From contig NZ_CP029617.1 in NCBI RefSeq assembly GCF_003945545.1, positions 2,119,001 through 2,183,000 of the forward strand: a stretch of 64,000 nucleotides of DNA. The letters run 5' to 3'. The stretch's first letter is position 1. Each line of letters begins with the position of its first letter. Positions 4,844 to 63,558 of the stretch are shown piece after piece. A program made the position numbers and the translations under genes. The notes beneath the pieces are model-generated. The model saw only the letters and a list, made by a program, of their open reading frames with translations, did no database searches and had not been told where the DNA came from. The stretch comes from Streptomyces sp. WAC 01529 (GTDB lineage Bacteria > Actinomycetota > Actinomycetes > Streptomycetales > Streptomycetaceae).

Positions 4844-5464
4844 TTACTTGATCATGTAGATCGTGGCGAAGAGGCCGATCCAGACCACATCGACGAAGTG
4901 CCAGTAATAGGACACGACGATGGCTGCGGTCGCCTGTTCATGGGTGAACTTCCTGGCCGCGTAGGTCCGGCCGAGGACCAGCAGGAAGGCGATCAGGCCG
5001 CCTGTCACATGCAGTCCGTGGAAGCCGGTGGTCAGGTAGAACACCGAGCCGTACGGGTCGGAGGAGAGCGAGAGCCCGTCCTTCTTGACCAGCTCGGTGT
5101 ACTCGTACACCTGACCGCCGATGAAGACCGCACCCATGATGAAGGTGACGATGAACCACATCCGGAGCTTCTTCACGTCGCCACGCTCAGCGGCGAAGAC
5201 GCCGAGCTGACACGTGAGGGAGGAGAGCACCAGGATGGTGGTGTTCGTCGCCGAGAACGGGAAGTTAAGGGCCGAGGCCATTTCCTTCCAGTGATCAGGA
5301 CCTGTCACCGATCGCAGGGTGAAGTACATCGCGAAGAGGGCCGCGAAGAACATCAGCTCGGAACTCAGCCAGATGATGGTTCCGACGCTGGTGAGGTTCG
5401 GTCGATTGACCGGCGGGTGCGCGTGCCCGGTATCTACTGTCGTTGCTGTCGCCACGACCGACAT
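4844..5464 (-). CDS. ctaE: Cytochrome c oxidase subunit III
   Basis: Subunit III of the aa3-type oxidase, a 206-residue membrane protein. The hydrophobic segments and conserved [24 protein letters not shown] and [11 protein letters not shown] are typical. First gene of the operon with qcrCAB, placing oxidase and bc1 parts under one promoter. No Shine-Dalgarno sequence precedes ATG 5464. The start codon itself lies inside a 21-bp perfect palindrome (5455-5475), which could hide the start in mRNA or bind a regulator. Confidence 0.96.
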
Positions 5465-28380: not shown

Positions 28381-29520
28381 ATGAGCTCGCTGAATCTCGA
28401 CGACTTCACCGACCTGATCGAGCGGCCCGACGGCGGGGTGCGCCGCGACGCCGAGGAGCGCAGGGAGCGGCTGACCGTGCCGCCCGGCGCCCTCGGCCGC
28501 CTCGACGAACTGGGCGAGTGGCTGTCGGCGGCCCAGTCCTCGGTGCCGGTCCGGCCGGTGGAGCGGCCGCGCGTGGTGCTCTTCGCGGGCGACCACGGGG
28601 TCGCCCGGCTCGGGGTCTCGGCGCGGCCCGCGGGCGGCGCCGCCGAGCTTGTGCGTGCCGTGCTGGCCGGTGAGAGCCCGGTGGCCGTCCTCGCGCGCCG
28701 CCTCGACGTGCCGGTGCGGGTCATCGACATGGCGCTGGACTGCGACCCCGCCGAGCTGCCCGCGGAGGTCGCGGGACACCGGGTGCGGCGCGGGTCGGGA
28801 CGTATCGACATCGAGGACGCGCTGAGCGCCGAGGAGGCCGAGCGCGCGGTGCGGGCGGGCATGGCCGTCGCCGACGAGGAGGCGGACTCCGGCACCGATC
28901 TGGTCGTGCTCGGCGATGTGAGCGTCGGCGGCACGACGCCCGCCGCGACGCTGATCGCCGCGCTCTGCGGCACCGACGCGTCCGTGGTGACCGGGCGGGG
29001 CGGCGAGGCCATCGACGACCTGGCGTGGATGCGCAAGTGCGCGGCGGTGCGGGACGCGCTGCGGCGGGCCCGGCCGGTACTCGGCGACCAGCTGGAGCTG
29101 CTGGCGACGGTCGGCGGCGCCGATCTGGCCGCGATGACGGGGTTCCTGTTGCAGTGCGCGGTGCGGCGTACGCCGGTGATCCTGGATGGCGTCGTGGCCT
29201 CGGCGGCGGCGCTGGTCGCCCAGCGAGCGGCCTTCCGGGCGCCGGACTGGTGGCTCGCGGGGCACGACAGCGGGGAACCGGCGCAGGCCAAGGCGCTGGA
29301 CCGGATGGCCCTGGAGCCGCTCCTGACCCATGGGGTCAAGGTCGGCGAGGGGGCGGGGGCGCTGCTCGCGCTACCGCTGGTGCGGGCCGCGGCGGCACTC
29401 TCGGCGGAGCTGCCGGAGCGGGCCGCTGACGCGGGGTCTGGGGCGGAGTCCGGGGCGGAGTCCGGGGCGGAGTCCGGGGCGGAGGCCGGGGCGGCGACCG
29501 GAGCGGCGGCCGCCGGGTAG
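28381..29520 (+). CDS. cobT: Nicotinate-nucleotide:dimethylbenzimidazole phosphoribosyltransferase
   Basis: Makes alpha-ribazole phosphate, the lower ligand precursor of cobalamin. Conserved segments include FAGDHGVARLGVSA, GDVSVGGTTPAATL and, near residue 321, VKVGEGAGALL with the likely catalytic glutamate. The 379-residue length exceeds the family by an acidic, low-complexity tail of GAES-type four-residue repeats from 12-bp tandem DNA units (about 29436-29517). TACTGT ends 7 nt before ATG 28381 with no ribosome site, so the mRNA is probably leaderless. Confidence 0.95.
   Translation: MSSLNLDDFTDLIERPDGGVRRDAEERRERLTVPPGALGRLDELGEWLSAAQSSVPVRPVERPRVVLFAGDHGVARLGVSARPAGGAAELVRAVLAGESPVAVLARRLDVPVRVIDMALDCDPAELPAEVAGHRVRRGSGRIDIEDALSAEEAERAVRAGMAVADEEADSGTDLVVLGDVSVGGTTPAATLIAALCGTDASVVTGRGGEAIDDLAWMRKCAAVRDALRRARPVLGDQLELLATVGGADLAAMTGFLLQCAVRRTPVILDGVVASAAALVAQRAAFRAPDWWLAGHDSGEPAQAKALDRMALEPLLTHGVKVGEGAGALLALPLVRAAAALSAELPERAADAGSGAESGAESGAESGAEAGAATGAAAAG
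29436..29517 (+). repeat. 12-bp tandem repeat in the cobT tail
   Basis: GGGGCGGAGTCC-like units recur head to tail and encode Gly-Ala-Glu-Ser, decaying towards Gly-Ala-Ala-Thr near the stop. It leads straight into the 15-bp repeat tract downstream. Confidence 0.8.
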
Positions 29521-30110
29521 GTGCCCGGCGGGTTGGCGGCTGGCGGGTTGGCGCCCGGCGGGTTGGCGGCTGGCGGGTTGATGGCCGCCGGGTAGACGCT
29601 GGCCGGGTAGGGCGCCCGGCAGGTAGACGGCCCGGCAGGCAGGTGTCCGGCAGGGAGCCGCCCGGCAGGCAGACGCCCGGCAGGTAGACGGCCAGCAGGT
29701 AGACGCCGCCCACCCCGTTGACGGCCGCCGGGTTGACGGGCGGCAGGCAGCCCCCGGCGGGTTGACGGCCGCCGGGCAGACGCCCGACAGGGATCCGGCC
29801 GGCAGGCAGACGCCCGACAGGTTGGCGGCCAGCAGGGAGCCGCCCGGCACGGAGCCGCCCGGCAGGTTGACGGCCAGCAGGTAGACGCCGCCCACCCCGT
29901 TGACGGCCGCCGGGTAGACGGGCGGCAGGCAGCCCCCCGGCGGGTTGACGGCCGCCGGGTAGACGCTGGCCGGGTAGGCCCCCGGCAGGCAGACGGACCG
30001 GCACGGAGCCGCCCGGCAGGCAGACGCCCGGCAGGTTGGCACCGACAGGCAGGCGCCCGCCGCACAGGCACCCGCCGCGTAGGCGCCCGGCGGCGCGGAT
30101 CGGTCATGCC
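29521..30110. repeat. Minisatellite of about 15-bp period between cobT and the MprF-like gene
   Basis: Almost the whole 615-bp gap is made of degenerate 15-bp units, close to CGCCCGGCAGGCAGA (variants with GGTTGA, GGTAGA and GGGAGC), about 40 in all. Segments of roughly 95 bp are duplicated at 29678-29775 and 29860-29958 (offset 182 bp). In one antisense frame the units read as pentapeptides with Asn/Cys/Ser then Leu/Pro in fixed positions, like pentapeptide-repeat proteins. I see no ribosome site or start codon, so I annotate repeat rather than gene. Confidence 0.85.
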
Positions 30111-40604: not shown

Positions 40605-43310
40605 ATGACCGACCCCTCCGCAATCCAGCCGAGCGAGCTCGACCAGCTCCCGGACCGCGACCCCGAGGAGACCGCCGAATGGCAGGCCTCCCTGGACGCC
40701 GTTACTCAGGCGGCCGGGCCGCACCGTGCCGCGTACCTGATGCGCCGCACGCTGGAGCGCGCCGAGGGCGCGGGCCTGGCGCTGCCCAAGCTCCTCGAAA
40801 CGGACTACGTCAACACCATCCCCACCTCCGCCGAGCCGTCCATCGACGGTGACGAGGAGATGGAGCGGAAGATCACCGCGTGGAACCGCTGGAACGCGGC
40901 CGCGATGGTCACCCGCGGCTCCAAGCACGGCGTCGGCGGCCACATAGCGACCTTCGCGTCGGCGGCCTGGCTGTACGAGACCGGCTTCAACCACTTCTTC
41001 AAGGGCAAGGAGTCCGGCGAGGCCGCCGGCTCCGGCGACCAGCTCTACATCCAGGGCCACGCCTCCCCCGGCATCTACGCCCGCGCCTTCCTCGACGGCC
41101 GCCTGAACGAGGCGCAGCTCGACAACTTCCGCCGCGAGGCGGGCGGCGACGGCCTGCCGTCCTACCCGCACCCGCGCCGCCTGCCCTGGCTGTGGGAGTT
41201 CCCGACGGTGTCGATGGGCCTTGGCCCGCTCTCCGCGATCTACCAGGCGCGCTTCAACCGCTACCTGACCAACCGCGGCATCAAGGACGTCTCCGCCTCG
41301 CACGTGTGGGCGTTCCTCGGTGACGGCGAGATGGACGAGCCCGAGTCGACGGCGGCCCTCGCACTCGCCGCGCGCGAAGGCCTGGACAACCTCACGTACG
41401 TCATCAACTGCAACCTCCAGCGCCTCGACGGCCCGGTCCGCGCCAACTTCCGTGTGGTGCAGGAGCTGGAGGCCCAGTTCCGCGGCGCCGGGTGGAACGT
41501 CATCAAGGTCCTGTGGGGCAACGCCTGGGACGAGCTGTTCCAGCTCGACACCACGGGCGCCCTCGTCCGCCGCCTGCGCGAGGTGCCGGACGCGCAGTTC
41601 CAGACGTACGCGACGCGCGACGCCGCCTACATCCGCGAGCACTTCTTCGGCGCCGAGCCCGCCCTCGTCGAGCTGGGCAAGCTGCTGAGCGACGACAAGA
41701 TCAGCGAGTGCTTCCACCTCTCGCGCGGCGGCCACGAGGCCCGCAAGGTGTACGCGGCCTACCGTGCGGCGCTCACCCACAAGGGCGCGCCGACCGTGAT
41801 CCTCGCGCAGACGGTCAAGGGCTTCACGCTCGGCAAGGGCTTCGAGTCCAAGAACGCCAACCACCAGATGAAGAAGCTGACGGTGGACGAGTTCAAGGAC
41901 ATGCGCGACCTGCTGGGTCTGCCGATCCCGGACAGCGCCTTCGTCGACGGCCAGGTGCCCTACGGCCACCCCGGCGCCGACTCCCCCGAGGTCCGCTACC
42001 TCCAGGAGCGCCGCGCGGCCCTCGGCGGCCCGGCCCCGGCCCGCCGCACCCAGCCGCTGGCTCCGCTGCCGGCCGCCGCGGACAAGACGTTCGCGTCCTT
42101 CGACAAGGGCTCCGGCTCGCAGAACGTGGCGACGACCATGGCGTTCGTACGCCTGGTCAAGGACCTCGTACGCGACAAGGAGACCGGCAAGCGCTGGGTG
42201 CCGATCGTCCCCGACGAGGCGCGCACCTTCGGCATGGAGAGCCTCTTCCCGTCGCTCGGCATCTACTCCCCCAAGGGCCAGACGTACGAGCCGGTCGACC
42301 GCGACCAGCTGATGTACTACAAGGAGGCCAAGGACGGCCAGATCCTCAACGAGGGGATCACCGAGGCCGGTTCCATGGCGGACTTCATCGCCGCGTCCAC
42401 GTCGTACGCGACGCACGGCGAAGCGATGATCCCCTTCTACATCTTCTACTCGATGTTCGGCTGGCAGCGCACCGCCGACCAGATGTGGCAGCTCGGCGAC
42501 CAGCTCGGCCGCGGCTTCCTCGTCGGCGCCACCGCCGGTCGTACGACGCTGACGGGTGAGGGCCTCCAGCACGCGGACGGCCACTCCCCGGTCATCGCGG
42601 CGACCAACCCGGCCGCGCTGACCTACGACCCGGCGTTCGCGTACGAGATCGCGGCGATCGTCAAGGACGGTCTGCGCCGCATGTACGGCGAGGCGGCCCC
42701 GGGTGAGGACCCGAACGTCTTCTACTACCTCACCGTCTACAACGAGCCGATGCCGCAGCCCGCGAAGCCCGCGGGTGTCGACGAGGGCATCGTGCGGGGC
42801 CTCTACCGCTTCAACACGGCGGAGTCTGCGGGCCTGGCGCCCGCGGCCAACGCCGCGCGCATCCAGCTGCTCGGCTCCGGTACGGCCATCCACTGGACGC
42901 TCGCCGCGCAGAAGATGCTCGCCGAGGAGTGGGGCGTGGCCGCGGACGTCTGGTCGGCCACGTCCTGGACGGAGCTGCGCCGGGACGCCCTGGAGGCGGA
43001 CGAGGCGCTGCTGCGCGGCGAGGAGCGCATCCCCTATGTGCGCAAGGCACTTGAGGGTGCGCAGGGCCCCGTGCTCGCCGTCTCCGACTACATGCGTCAG
43101 GTCCCCGACCAGATCGCCCAGTGGGTCGAGCAGGACTACTCCTCGCTCGGCGCGGACGGCTTCGGCCTCTCCGACACGCGAGACGCCGCCCGCCGCCACT
43201 TCGGCGTCGACGCGGAGTCGATCGTCGTCGCGGCGCTGGCGCAGCTGGCGCGGCGGGGCGAGGTGCGGGCTTCGGCGGTGAAGGAGGCTCGGGCCAAGTA
43301 CGGCCTGTAG
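40605..43310 (+). CDS. aceE: Pyruvate dehydrogenase E1, homodimeric type
   Basis: Thiamine-diphosphate enzyme that decarboxylates pyruvate and acetylates E2 lipoyl groups. The 901-residue protein is the single-chain type. [20 protein letters not shown] lies near residue 106, the ThDP motif [10 protein letters not shown] with NCNLQ near 239-270, and [11 protein letters not shown] near 650. ATG 40605 follows AGGAAGGCGG. Its complex should use the E2 and Lpd encoded just upstream, and LipA/LipB encoded 10 kb downstream. No hairpin terminator is seen at its end; a G-rich repeat tract follows. Confidence 0.97.
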
Positions 43311-43342
43311 CCCCGTACCGGGGCGTTCTCTCCCGGGGCGCC

Positions 43343-43552
43343 GGGGGCGGTGTCCTCGGGGCCCGGGGGGCTTGGTCCGGCCTTCCCTTCGGACGCGCGG
43401 GAGCGGTTGCCCCGGGGGCGGTGTCCTCGGGGGCGAGGGGGCGGTGTCCTCGGGGCGAGGGGGCGGTGTCCTCGGGGCGAGGGGGCGGTGTCCTCGGGGG
43501 CGAGGGGGCTTGGTCTGGCCTTCCCTTCGTACGCGCGGAAGCGGTTGCCCGG
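43343..43552. repeat. G-rich short tandem repeats after aceE
   Basis: GGGGGCGGTGTCCTCGGGG starts at 43343, 43414, 43437, 43459 and 43481; the last three are 22 bp apart. On either side a segment of about 43 bp beginning CTTGGTC is duplicated (43371 and 43509). Many runs of three or more G on the plus strand could form quadruplexes. No gene is supported here. Confidence 0.85.
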
Positions 43553-43650
43553 GGGGCGGCGAGGGCGGATGCCGACAGCGGCGTCCTCGGCGCAGGGGGC
43601 TCGGGCCCCGTACCGCCCCCGTAGCCCCGTCCCAGAGTCTCCCCTCTCGC

Positions 43651-43707
43651 CCCTGTCCCGCCGCTTCGCGGCGGGTGCCTCCCACCCACCCACCCGTTTA
43701 CCCCGCG
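43651..43707 (-). repeat. Inverted copy of the 62-bp repeat unit
   Basis: This 57-bp segment matches the reverse complement of the downstream array unit with about four mismatches. It contains the hairpin CCCGCCGCTTCGCGGCGGG and then the CCCACCC run. It faces the array, with a partial forward unit (43713-43730) between. Confidence 0.8.
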
Positions 43708-43768
43708 TTGAGCGGTGAACGGGTGGGTGGCGGCGTTTGGGGCCAATCCGGTGCGGCGTGACGACGCC

Positions 43769-44240
43769 GGGTGAACGGGGGGCGTCCGGTGTGGGGTTGG
43801 TGCCGGGTGAAGTGGTGGGTGGGTGGGGACATCCGTCGCGGACCGGCGGGATAGGGCATGGTGCCGGGTGAACGGGCGGGCGGGTGGGGAACATCCGGCG
43901 CGAAGCGGCGGGACAGGGCATAGCGCGGGGTGAACGGGTGAGTGGGTGGGAGACATCCGGCGCGAAGCGGCAGAACAGGACATCGCGCGGGGTGAACGGG
44001 CGGGCGGGTGGGAGACATCCGGCGCGAAGCGGCGGAACAGGACATCGCGCGGGGTGAACGGGCGGGCGGGTGGGAGACATCCGGCGCGAAGCGGCGGAAC
44101 AGGACATCGCGCGGGGTGAACGGGTGGGTGGGTGGGAGACATCCGGCGCGAAGCGGCGGGACAGGGCATCGCGCGGGGTGAACGGGTGGGTGGGTGGGAG
44201 ACATCCGGCGCGAAGCGGCGGGACAGGGCATGGCGCCGGG
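43769..44240 (+). repeat. 62-bp tandem repeat array
   Basis: Six full units start at 43866, 43928, 43990, 44052, 44114 and 44176, exactly 62 bp apart, with only a few differences. A diverged 61-bp unit starts at 43805 and a shortened one at 43769. Each unit runs from GGGTGAACGGG, through GGTGGG runs and CATCCGGCGCGAAGCGG, to CATCGCGCG. 62 is not a multiple of 3, so frames change at each unit and no protein is implied. There are no unique spacers, so this is not CRISPR. Confidence 0.93.
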
Positions 44241-44390
44241 TCGGCCGGAGGTGTCCGGGGCGGGGCGGCCAGGCCGGCTTGGCGCCGGGCGAGCGGGCGA
44301 GACGCGTCCCGCGCGAAGCGGAGGCGCCCCCGCCCGAGAGGGCCAGGACAGCCGGGGCGAGCCCGTTCAATAGCACTGCATGATGGACGT

Positions 44391-45410
44391 ATGCGCGCCG
44401 CCCGCCTCATCAAAATGGTCCTCCTGCTCCAGTCCCGCCCCTCCATGACCGCCGCGGAACTCGCCACCGAGCTGGAGGTGTCCGAGCGGACCATCACGAG
44501 GGACGCGCAGGCCCTGTCGGAGGCGGGCGTCCCCGTCTACGCCGACCGGGGCCGAACCGGCGGCTACCGCCTCATCGGCGGCTACCGCACCCGCCTGACG
44601 GGCCTGGGCCGCAGCGAGGCAGAGGCCCTGTTCCTGTCCGGAGTGCCGGGCGCCCTGCGCGAGATGGGCCTGGAGGACGCCGCGTCGGCCGCCCGCCTGA
44701 AGGTGTCCGCGGCGCTCATGCCCTCCCTCCAGGACGCCTCACAGAACGCCTCGCAACGGTTCCACCTGGACGCGCCCGGCTGGTTCAAGGAGACGCCCGC
44801 CCCCGAGCTGCTGCCGGCCGTCGCGGACGCGGTGTGGGACGACCGCCGGGTCACCGCCCGCTACCGCCGCCAGGAGGCGGAGGTGGAGCGGGAGTTGGAG
44901 CCGTACGGGCTCGTGCTGAAGGCGGGCGTCTGGTACTTGTGCGCGAGGGTGCCCGACTCCGGGGCGTACCGGGTCTACCGCATCGACCGGTTCACCGCGG
45001 TGGCCCCGGGCGAGGAACGCTTCGTACGCGATGACGAGTTCGACCTGCCGGGCTTCTGGGAGGAGCGGGCGGCACAGTTCGCGCGGGCGATCCTGCGCGC
45101 GGAGGTCGTGGTGCGGCTCACCCCCGCGGGCGTGCGGCAACTGCCGTACGCCACCGACCGCGCGGTGGCCCGCGAGGCGATGGAGTCGGCGGGCGAGCCC
45201 GACGCGACGGGCCGGGTGACGGTCACCCTGCCCGTCGAGAACGAGGACGTGGCGTACACGCAGCTGATGTCTCTCGGCCCCGAAGCGGAGGTGCTGGCGC
45301 CCACCGCCCTGCGCGAACGGTTCACGGACGCGGCGCGCCGCCTGTCCGGCCTCTACCGAGACCACCAAGACCACCAAGACGGCCCGGACCGCCAGGACCG
45401 TCACCGGTAA
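44391..45410 (+). CDS. WYL-domain transcriptional regulator (YafY type)
   Basis: A 339-residue regulator. The N-terminal HTH_11-type helix-turn-helix (residues 1-60) has RPSMTAAELATELEVSERTI, and the WYL domain (about 140-310) has YGLVLKAGVWYLCAR and YRVYRIDRF. Family members bind DNA and sense a ligand through the WYL fold. The start ATG 44391 has no ribosome site. Its last 10 bp overlap the end of a convergent SDR gene. The tail is rich in Asp, His and Gln. The 62-bp array ends 150 bp upstream. Confidence 0.9.
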   Translation: MRAARLIKMVLLLQSRPSMTAAELATELEVSERTITRDAQALSEAGVPVYADRGRTGGYRLIGGYRTRLTGLGRSEAEALFLSGVPGALREMGLEDAASAARLKVSAALMPSLQDASQNASQRFHLDAPGWFKETPAPELLPAVADAVWDDRRVTARYRRQEAEVERELEPYGLVLKAGVWYLCARVPDSGAYRVYRIDRFTAVAPGEERFVRDDEFDLPGFWEERAAQFARAILRAEVVVRLTPAGVRQLPYATDRAVAREAMESAGEPDATGRVTVTLPVENEDVAYTQLMSLGPEAEVLAPTALRERFTDAARRLSGLYRDHQDHQDGPDRQDRHR

Positions 45411-63012: not shown

Positions 63013-63558
63013 TCACGGCGTCGGTCCGGGCCTGGGCTCGCCCCGGTAGGTGCCGAAGAACCAGCGGTTTCCCTCGGGGTCCGCGATGCCGAACTCGCGG
63101 CTGCCGTACGGCTTGTCCTCGATCTCACCGACGATCTTCACGCCGGCCTCGGTGAGGCGGGCGTACAGGGCGTCCACCTCGTCGGTGACGACATAGGCGC
63201 CGGAGGTGCCGGGCTTCCCGCATGCCTCTCCGGGGGCGTCCGGGTCGTACGAGCCGAGCATGATGCCGCCGCCCTCGGGCCAGTCCAGCTGGGCGTGGGC
63301 GACGCGGGCGCCGTCCTCGTAGACGGCCGTCCGCCGGAAGCCGACGGTGTCGACGAGGAAGTCGATCAGGGCGGGGGCGTCCTGGGCCTGGAGGGTCGGC
63401 CAGACGGCGGGGTCCCGCTGGGGGGAGGGGGTGGTGGTGTCGAGGTGCGGCTTCGCTGTGGTGTCGGGTTCGGGTGAGGTGCGGTGCTGTTTCGCTGTGG
63501 TGTCGGGTTCGGGTGAGGAGGAGTGCTGCTTCGCTGTGGTGTCCGGTGTGGTGTTCAT
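63013..63558 (-). CDS. VOC-family (glyoxalase-like) protein
   Basis: A 181-residue protein whose C-terminal 130 residues are a vicinal-oxygen-chelate domain: ALIDFLVDTVGFRRTAVYED, AYVVTDEVDALYARLTEAGVKIV and FGIADPEGNRWFFGTY. The N-terminal 45 residues are three near-identical 13-residue repeats (PDTTAKQH...), not part of the fold. Activity is unknown. ATG 63558 lies 5 nt after the AraC-type gene's stop, so the two are an operon. Confidence 0.88.
   Translation of the reverse strand: MNTTPDTTAKQHSSSPEPDTTAKQHRTSPEPDTTAKPHLDTTTPSPQRDPAVWPTLQAQDAPALIDFLVDTVGFRRTAVYEDGARVAHAQLDWPEGGGIMLGSYDPDAPGEACGKPGTSGAYVVTDEVDALYARLTEAGVKIVGEIEDKPYGSREFGIADPEGNRWFFGTYRGEPRPGPTP
63440..63556 (-). repeat. 39-bp tandem repeat at the VOC gene 5' end
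   Basis: The segment TTCGCTGTGGTGTC recurs at 63452, 63491 and 63530, exactly 39 bp apart. It encodes three 13-residue units and keeps the reading frame. Confidence 0.88.

Follow-up and report, generated by a model that had tools for sequence, protein, structure and literature searches.

REP elements are short palindromic intergenic repeats present in many copies; they lie downstream of genes, between convergent genes or genes read in the same direction, and form opposite-orientation dimers able to co-fold (Di Nocera et al. 2013, PMC3733652). That survey treats the GTAG and CGTC superfamilies, the latter described in its accessible text as having no dedicated transposase, and the word Actinobacteria does not occur in its main text. 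In REPINs, as the accessible part of Bertels and Rainey (2011, PMC3116915) presents them, spaced inverted doublets fold into a long hairpin, tandem arrays are near-identical with their flanks included, and singlets are predicted to be decayed remnants. According to the accessible text of Rehm et al. (2015, PMC4692102), the G-quadruplex repeats of Xanthomonas and Nostoc are non-coding, are built on the heptamer GGGNATC, lie between aligned genes near stop codons and are rarer between divergent genes. Two further systems are known from Streptomyces itself, each cited here from the accessible part of its source: palindromes II and III of the telomeres, short hairpins with sheared G:A closure and GCA loops that serve as chromosome-end replication sites bound by Tap (PMC4513846), and the HS-U-lack TEPs of S. 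clavuligerus, transcript ends with a GC-rich hairpin and no U-tract, where 353 of 535 highly structured 3' ends lack the tract (PMC8269248).

The repeat described here lies downstream of aceE in Streptomyces sp. WAC 01529 and at many other places in that genome. It resembles REPs in each of the respects given above, including the lack of a dedicated transposase seen in the CGTC group, and differs from them in carrying a G-quadruplex motif with each hairpin, in forming head-to-head pairs only and in having no GTAG tag at the 5' foot of its hairpin. It is REP-like but is filed here as neither REP nor REPIN. With REPINs it shares the folding inverted doublets and the near-identical arrays; unlike REPINs, it occurs as singles more often than in mixed-strand clusters (49 against 24), the singles are not decayed, the arrays repeat the single unit instead of the doublet, and no Y1 gene was found. 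Its arrays differ from BIMEs in lacking alternating orientations, each mixed cluster having one switch. Like the Xanthomonas and Nostoc repeats it is non-coding, favours aligned genes and the vicinity of stop codons and is rarer between divergent genes, but in place of a heptamer it has a 15-nt motif joined to a GNA hairpin in a unit of ~55-60 bp. It shares hairpin size, loop type and probably closure with the telomere palindromes, but is internal, intergenic and fused to a quadruplex motif, and it shares the U-less GC-rich hairpin with the S. clavuligerus ends, which are a mapped 3'-end class and not a repeat family, and for which the accessible text describes no G-quadruplex. While Y1 transposases commonly accompany repeats of the REP-like kind, the present family stands in a high-GC actinomycete genome in which none was found. 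Titles and abstract openings in the open-licence literature contained no recognisable report of this Streptomyces repeat family.

The aceE site and the anatomy of the repeat unit

The window, that is the whole stretch of 64,000 nucleotides analysed, holds the repeat in the interval between aceE and the gene for a WYL/WCX-domain regulator, as follows (positions are those of the window).

40605..43310, + strand: aceE, pyruvate dehydrogenase E1, the upstream gene (TIGR00759, 1270 bits against a cut-off of 860; PF17831)
43311..43650, no strand: spacer with its own 22-bp tandem repeats at 43414-43509 (TRF; own-genome search)
43651..43707, - strand: single inverted copy of the element, hairpin stem uninterrupted (profile match, E 2.6e-17)
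43681..43695, - strand: G-quadruplex motif GGGTGGGTGGGTGGG within the inverted copy (pattern search of the genome)
43714..43730, + strand: partial copy, in a tight dyad with 43686-43702 (repeat pair of 17 nt, 94%, 11 nt apart)
43798..43858, + strand: array unit 1, diverged (profile match, E 2.9e-7)
43858..43921, + strand: array unit 2 (profile match, E 1e-11)
43920..43985, + strand: array unit 3 (profile match, E 3.3e-13)
43982..44046, + strand: array unit 4 (profile match, E 1e-11)
44045..44108, + strand: array unit 5 (profile match, E 9.5e-12)
44106..44171, + strand: array unit 6, with an exact GGGTGGGTGGGTGGG at 44122-44136 (profile match, E 4.4e-15)
44169..44235, + strand: array unit 7, with an exact GGGTGGGTGGGTGGG at 44184-44198 (profile match, E 5.9e-15)
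44391..45410, + strand: WYL/WCX-domain transcriptional regulator, the downstream gene (PF13280, PF25583, PF08279)

A preliminary description of this stretch had reported a 62-bp tandem array faced by an inverted copy, and TRF, a repeat finder and the family profile all bear this out. TRF called an array at 43805-44241 with a period of 62, 7.1 copies, 91% matches and a score of 671. The family profile found one '-' copy and seven '+' copies, the latter at 43798-44235 with spacings of 61, 62, 62, 62, 62 and 62, and the repeat finder, which likewise gives a 62-nt spacing, pairs the inverted arm (43651-43707, 57 nt) at 93% complementarity with the units at 44110 and 44172. The preliminary description had also excluded selection on protein, 62 bp not being a codon multiple, and judged by the period this is reasonable. 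The '-' copy starts 341 bp and the '+' array 488 bp from the aceE stop codon, and the hairpin end of the '-' copy points toward that stop. Its nearer pairing partner is the partial '+' copy at 43714-43730, which the preliminary description had missed. The same description had proposed that the inverted pair could fold; consistent with this, the interval 43640-43740 has a predicted energy of -59.8 kcal/mol as RNA (z -5.75) and -33.4 as DNA (z -5.5), in each case beating 200 of 200 dinucleotide shuffles. An Rfam 15 covariance search of 43000-44700 gave no matches at E up to 1.

The spacer between aceE and the inverted copy (43311-43650) is a patchwork of local duplications, with 79-nt copies at 43343 and 43481. 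It is not dispersed: apart from the spacer itself, a search of the own genome returned two matches, both weak and short. Relatives have a plain hairpin at this place, but none was evident here by eye.

Read in order, the unit (~55-60 bp) consists of CGGGGYRAAC, the G-quadruplex motif GGGTGGGTGGGTGGG, 4-8 nt and a ~7-bp hairpin with a GNA loop; each full unit has both modules on one strand, and the consensus from 47 copies starts CGGCGCGGGGTnAACGGGTGGGTGGGTGGGAGAGATCCGCCGCGAAGCGGCGG. In 121 of 146 copies the G-run fits a strict putative quadruplex motif with single-nucleotide loops. The genome contains 89 exact GGGTGGGTGGGTGGG, and the fetched non-overlapping loci likewise contain 89, 84 of them within 30 bp of an element. 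A stem of at least 5 bp with a triloop was found in 90 of the 146 copies, and in 87 of these 90 the loop is GNA (GAA 53, GGA 20, GCA 14); the pattern used to fetch loci L142-L178 fixes the loop G and A of one copy per locus, so that loop counts from these loci are not independent. In the loop, G and A are conserved and the middle base varies, pointing to a loop of the sheared G:A type. Hairpins of the form d(GCGNAGC) are very stable. The gap between quadruplex motif and stem measures 4-8 nt in 72 of 78 measured copies and 6-7 nt in 52.

Upstream of the quadruplex motif, the head word CCTAC occurs in 32 of 117 copies against 4 expected, 31 of them 27-31 nt before the motif. GTAGG was found in the head stretch of 4 of the 117; the polarity of the head word is opposite to that of REPs, and by eye the 47-copy alignment has no conserved foot of the CGTC kind. 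At the tail no word rises above chance (20 of 107 copies against 13 expected, with shuffles reaching up to 24), and a terminal inverted repeat CCCTA/TAGGG was rejected, its head word being above chance and its tail word not. Stem covariation in the 47 aligned copies was indistinct (69 of 500 shuffles reach the score), the copies being too alike. A variant with a mismatched stem was found in 15 of 97 clustered copies, distributed over 7 clusters with 6 of the copies in the aceE array, and in none of the 49 singles (p 0.0026, not corrected for relatedness). As mismatched stems occur only in clusters, the amplified copies may be partly inert.

Spread of the family and its position relative to genes

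The preliminary description had centred on aceE. The unit instead belongs to a family dispersed at 75 places of the chromosome, and the head-to-head arrangement is family-wide. In the own genome, a single contig of 8.27 Mb, blastn matched the unit at many further places, and a covariance model built from 47 copies gave 158 matches at E up to 10. With copies defined by nhmmer at E < 0.01 in the fetched loci (776,168 bases including the window), we counted at least 146 copies in 75 clusters, of which 49 are single, 24 mixed-strand and 2 multi-copy on one strand; these copy numbers are lower bounds, the covariance search having scored 150 candidates where one genome was searched and 13 or 26 for each genome of the large searches. 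Only 3 of the 75 clusters overlap called genes. Streptomyces chromosomes are linear, and counted per Mb from end to end this one holds 0, 6, 13, 19, 14, 11, 8 and 4 clusters. No cluster was found in the first 1.5 Mb, and few lie near the other chromosome end.

Within the genus, 43 of 392 sampled genomes (own included) match at E up to 1e-3. The preliminary description had suggested that the unit be sought in other Streptomyces as well as in its own genome. Six or more matches were found in 12 of the 391 other genomes, with at most 13 scored each, and 30 more have one to four. An order-level sample gave matches in 14 of 197 genomes, all from this one genus of six, and a single weak blastn match fell in another family (G027, E 1.4e-4). 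Pattern-scan matches include S. aureoverticillatus, S. typhae, S. aurantiacus, S. alfalfae, S. aureocirculatus, S. alboflavus, S. longisporoflavus, S. flavofungini and S. hiroshimensis, and one lies in a record filed as Streptosporangium nondiastaticum. Plasmid and phage records gave no match to the unit.

With genes called by a codon-usage script, the 75 clusters fall between convergent genes in 21 cases, divergent genes in 10 and tandem genes in 44. Element-free spacers of the same DNA number 82, 105 and 263, respectively (Fisher test for convergent against divergent, p 0.019), or 20, 94 and 144 when only spacers of at least 100 bp are counted (p 2e-7). Clusters of other species show 10 convergent, 2 divergent and 18 tandem contexts against 25, 40 and 105 for element-free spacers (p 0.009), the context and orientation counts leaving out 11 of 41 clusters that lie at locus ends. 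Proximity points in the same direction: 35 of 86 flanking 3' ends lie within 50 bp of clusters, against 4 of 64 5' ends.

Orientation also follows the stop codon. Where a single of the own genome lies within 100 bp of the nearest stop codon, its hairpin points toward that stop in 25 of 34 cases (p 0.009), with 20 of 27 doing so within 50 bp and 26 of 38 within 200; toward 5' ends the singles show no bias (12:13). In other species the hairpin faces the stop in 10 of 11 singles, which brings the pooled count to 35 of 45 (p 2.5e-4); loci L142-L178 possibly come from the same species as some of the G-numbered genomes, and counts over both are not strictly independent.

Head-to-head pairs, array growth and comparison with relatives

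Wherever neighbouring copies lie on opposite strands, they stand head to head, '-' then '+', with their hairpins outward. This holds for 24 of 24 pairs in the own genome, 10 of 10 at other-species loci and every pair in G295 (11) and G262 (4), in total 49 of 49 with no tail-to-tail ('+-') neighbours, although the pairs are not all independent, some of those in G262 being orthologous to pairs in the own genome. Each of the 24 mixed clusters of the own genome switches strand exactly once, from - to +, and none contains a -+-+ repeat. The 49:0 rule constrains any theory of how the family spreads. Four of the 24 mixed clusters have a divergent-gene context and keep the outward rule there too. Because the rule holds in all gene contexts, divergent ones included, termination does not explain it, and its source more probably lies in the way new copies are made than in selection for termination. 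The singles show an asymmetry as well: an inverted remnant lies on the head side of 12 of 49 and on the tail side of 0 of 49, with the score threshold set after the fact (p 0.013 for the head side compared with shuffles).

Linkers between same-strand copies have a mean identity of 0.75 within a cluster (32 pairs) and 0.46 between clusters (634 pairs), the pattern expected from local tandem duplication. Only about half of the longer arrays keep a constant same-strand spacing. Eight between-cluster linker pairs nevertheless reach 0.75 or more, and two clusters of L023 share a linker. The 62-bp unit of the window recurs together with its 26-29-nt linker at L015 (11881-12152) and L026 (4815-5177), loci that blastn matches at 93% and 84%, respectively. 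The presence of this unit at two further loci means that exchange between sites, by conversion or movement, has occurred; the aceE array may have been seeded or converted from L015 or L026, or may be the source of those two. The preliminary description had taken the likeness of the units as a sign of recent amplification or active homogenisation. Homogenisation finds partial backing of another sort in the exchange between sites that took place at some time, and purely locus-specific array periods are rejected on the recurrence of unit and linker at L015 (11881) and L026.

The sister genome G262, which is 95% identical at the end of aceE, allowed 27 clusters to be compared, and the element stands at the same place in 21; the G262 stretches were partly picked where that genome had matches, and the share of 21 in 27 is accordingly not an unbiased one. 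The shared fraction is bounded by the totals, 47 matches in 41 clusters in G262 against 75 clusters here. The six clusters without an element in G262 are those at L014, L016, L030 and L096, one at L103 and the one in the window. Where a single corresponds to a single, place and strand agree in 12 of 12; strand agreement is quoted for these 12 sites only, multi-copy partners having been matched by strand. Six loci (L018, L022, L026, L029, L090 and L103) have one orientation in G262 and both here, which makes in-place amplification directly testable. Orthologous copies are only slightly more alike than non-orthologous ones (identity 0.90 against 0.864), in a comparison from which L021 and L103 dropped out.

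At the aceE site itself the gap to the WYL gene is 1080 bp in the window. Of 22 relatives, 17 are colinear there with gaps of 35-298 bp, one (G138) has the WYL gene inverted and 4 have one flank absent from the stretch, and this contrast in length agrees with the recent change that the preliminary description had read from the array. The near relatives G262, G178 and G295 have gaps of 81, 77 and 83 bp, and in G262 these about 80 bp contain no element copy. It follows that the array is either new in the own lineage or has been lost in sisters. A single '-' copy stands between aceE and the WYL gene in G138, G366 and G344, which implies either loss of the '-' copy from several relatives or repeated gain; the stretch upstream of the WYL gene in G228 has one clear element match. 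Among the relatives examined at this place, the '+' array was seen in the window only. Inversion of the WYL gene in G138 through element copies was considered but gained no support, only one copy having been found near the junction (L065, ~404-1510).

Explanations for origin and function

We lean, with only fair confidence, towards reading the aceE site as one locus of a dispersed, REP-like 3'-end element that is for the most part inherited and whose clusters expand chiefly at their own sites. Under this reading the single unit would be the working form at transcript 3' ends; fold-back (snap-back) copying at its head side would yield an inverted second copy, and tandem duplication would then produce an array. 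A tail-to-tail product would be a near-perfect palindrome with a 3-nt loop and is expected to be unstable, perfect palindromes being inviable. At aceE, both fold-back and tandem duplication would have taken place in the lineage of the own species, unless the products were lost in its sisters.

As to function, it is possible, if short of probable, that the element terminates the upstream transcript or shields its 3' end. For an element in the preferred orientation, RNA read from the stop codon would run CCGCCGC-UUC-GCGGCGG and then CCCACCCACCC, not U. The RNA carries the hairpin and then the C-rich CCCACCCACCC, which places the quadruplex motif in the template strand. A G-quadruplex in the template strand can stall RNA polymerase, and one just downstream of the hairpin could do so here, taking the part of the U-tract. 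In the stop-facing orientation a U-tract after the hairpin is absent, which is at odds with an intrinsic terminator. Neither the core-flank comparison nor RNA folding in two contexts shows selection at gene ends: over 9 orthologous pairs, core and intergenic flank are conserved at 0.82 and 0.70 (p 0.36, not significant), and the 3'-end contexts at L025 and L083 fold no better than shuffles (z -0.35 and -0.05). We regard as unlikely the more specific proposal that the unit combines a U-less bipartite terminator, made up of an RNA hairpin beside the stop codon and a template-strand quadruplex 4-8 nt beyond it that would stall the polymerase, with GNA hairpins and a head mini-hairpin that prime outward fold-back, one structure thus serving gene ends and amplifying itself in place. 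If a quadruplex does replace the U-tract, this would help to explain gene ends in GC-rich genomes with many U-less structured 3' ends.

A MITE-like history appears rather unlikely. Another transposase or recombinase would then have shifted the copies in trans, or recombination would have duplicated them from site to site, perhaps once an autonomous partner had been lost. The patchy multi-copy distribution and the same 62-bp unit at three loci would fit such movement, as would the CCTAC head in 32 of 117 copies and a nearly clean presence/absence difference of 43-48 bp, covering one element, between the own genome and G262 at L096 (5052-5102). The polarity of that difference was sought in seven genomes besides G262, none of which showed both flanks at a common site. 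Against movement, the tail has no motif above chance, long terminal repeats and target duplication were not seen, and the single-to-single sites are common to the sister genome.

Inert slippage, in which the array would be an ordinary minisatellite with no history beyond the aceE locus, seems improbable. The restriction of the mismatched-stem variant to multi-copy clusters, with 6 of the 15 copies coming from the aceE array, speaks for it, and the neighbouring 22-bp array looks like plain local duplication. The preliminary description had associated inert slippage with a single occurrence of the unit; the unit was found at 75 clusters of the own genome, in a family with fixed architecture, a bias of place and an orientation rule, and the 62-bp version recurs elsewhere. 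Inert slippage is refuted for the unit, and array growth itself may well be inert.

It is similarly hard to credit that the copies are a family of protein-binding sites of the nucleoid or gyrase type, as are the BIMEs of E. coli. The chromosomal range, 1.57 to 7.57 of 8.27 Mb among the matches listed, and the thinning of clusters toward the ends would suit such a role, but there is no strand bias between the chromosome halves, where singles divide 13:13 and 12:11.

A mobile REP/REPIN system, in which a REP-associated tyrosine (Y1) transposase would move the inverted pair as the replicating unit, as happens in Pseudomonas, is the least probable account and indeed very improbable: the copies are intergenic, palindromic, numerous, paired head to head and patchily distributed (six or more in 12 of 391 genomes), with inverted remnants on the head side of singles and never on the tail side, but PF01797, which we take to be the family of the RAYTs, has 0 matches in the whole own genome against control matches in 5 of 14 genomes, singles show no greater decay than copies in clusters (median -log10 E 12.3 and 9.4, respectively; p 0.10), and no cluster has a -+-+ repeat.

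Other repeats were noted in passing. In the window, 29505-30093 is a degenerate array in which periods of 15, 45 and 182 bp are nested and which is longer than the array at aceE, and 63444-63547 is a 39-bp tandem array of 2.7 copies (both TRF). L017 (~4850-5055) and L035 (~4900-5060) have repeats of the element's head part (CCCCTAC...CGGCGCGGGGCAAAC) that lack quadruplex motif and hairpin, and the head-part repeat at L035 is also present in G262.
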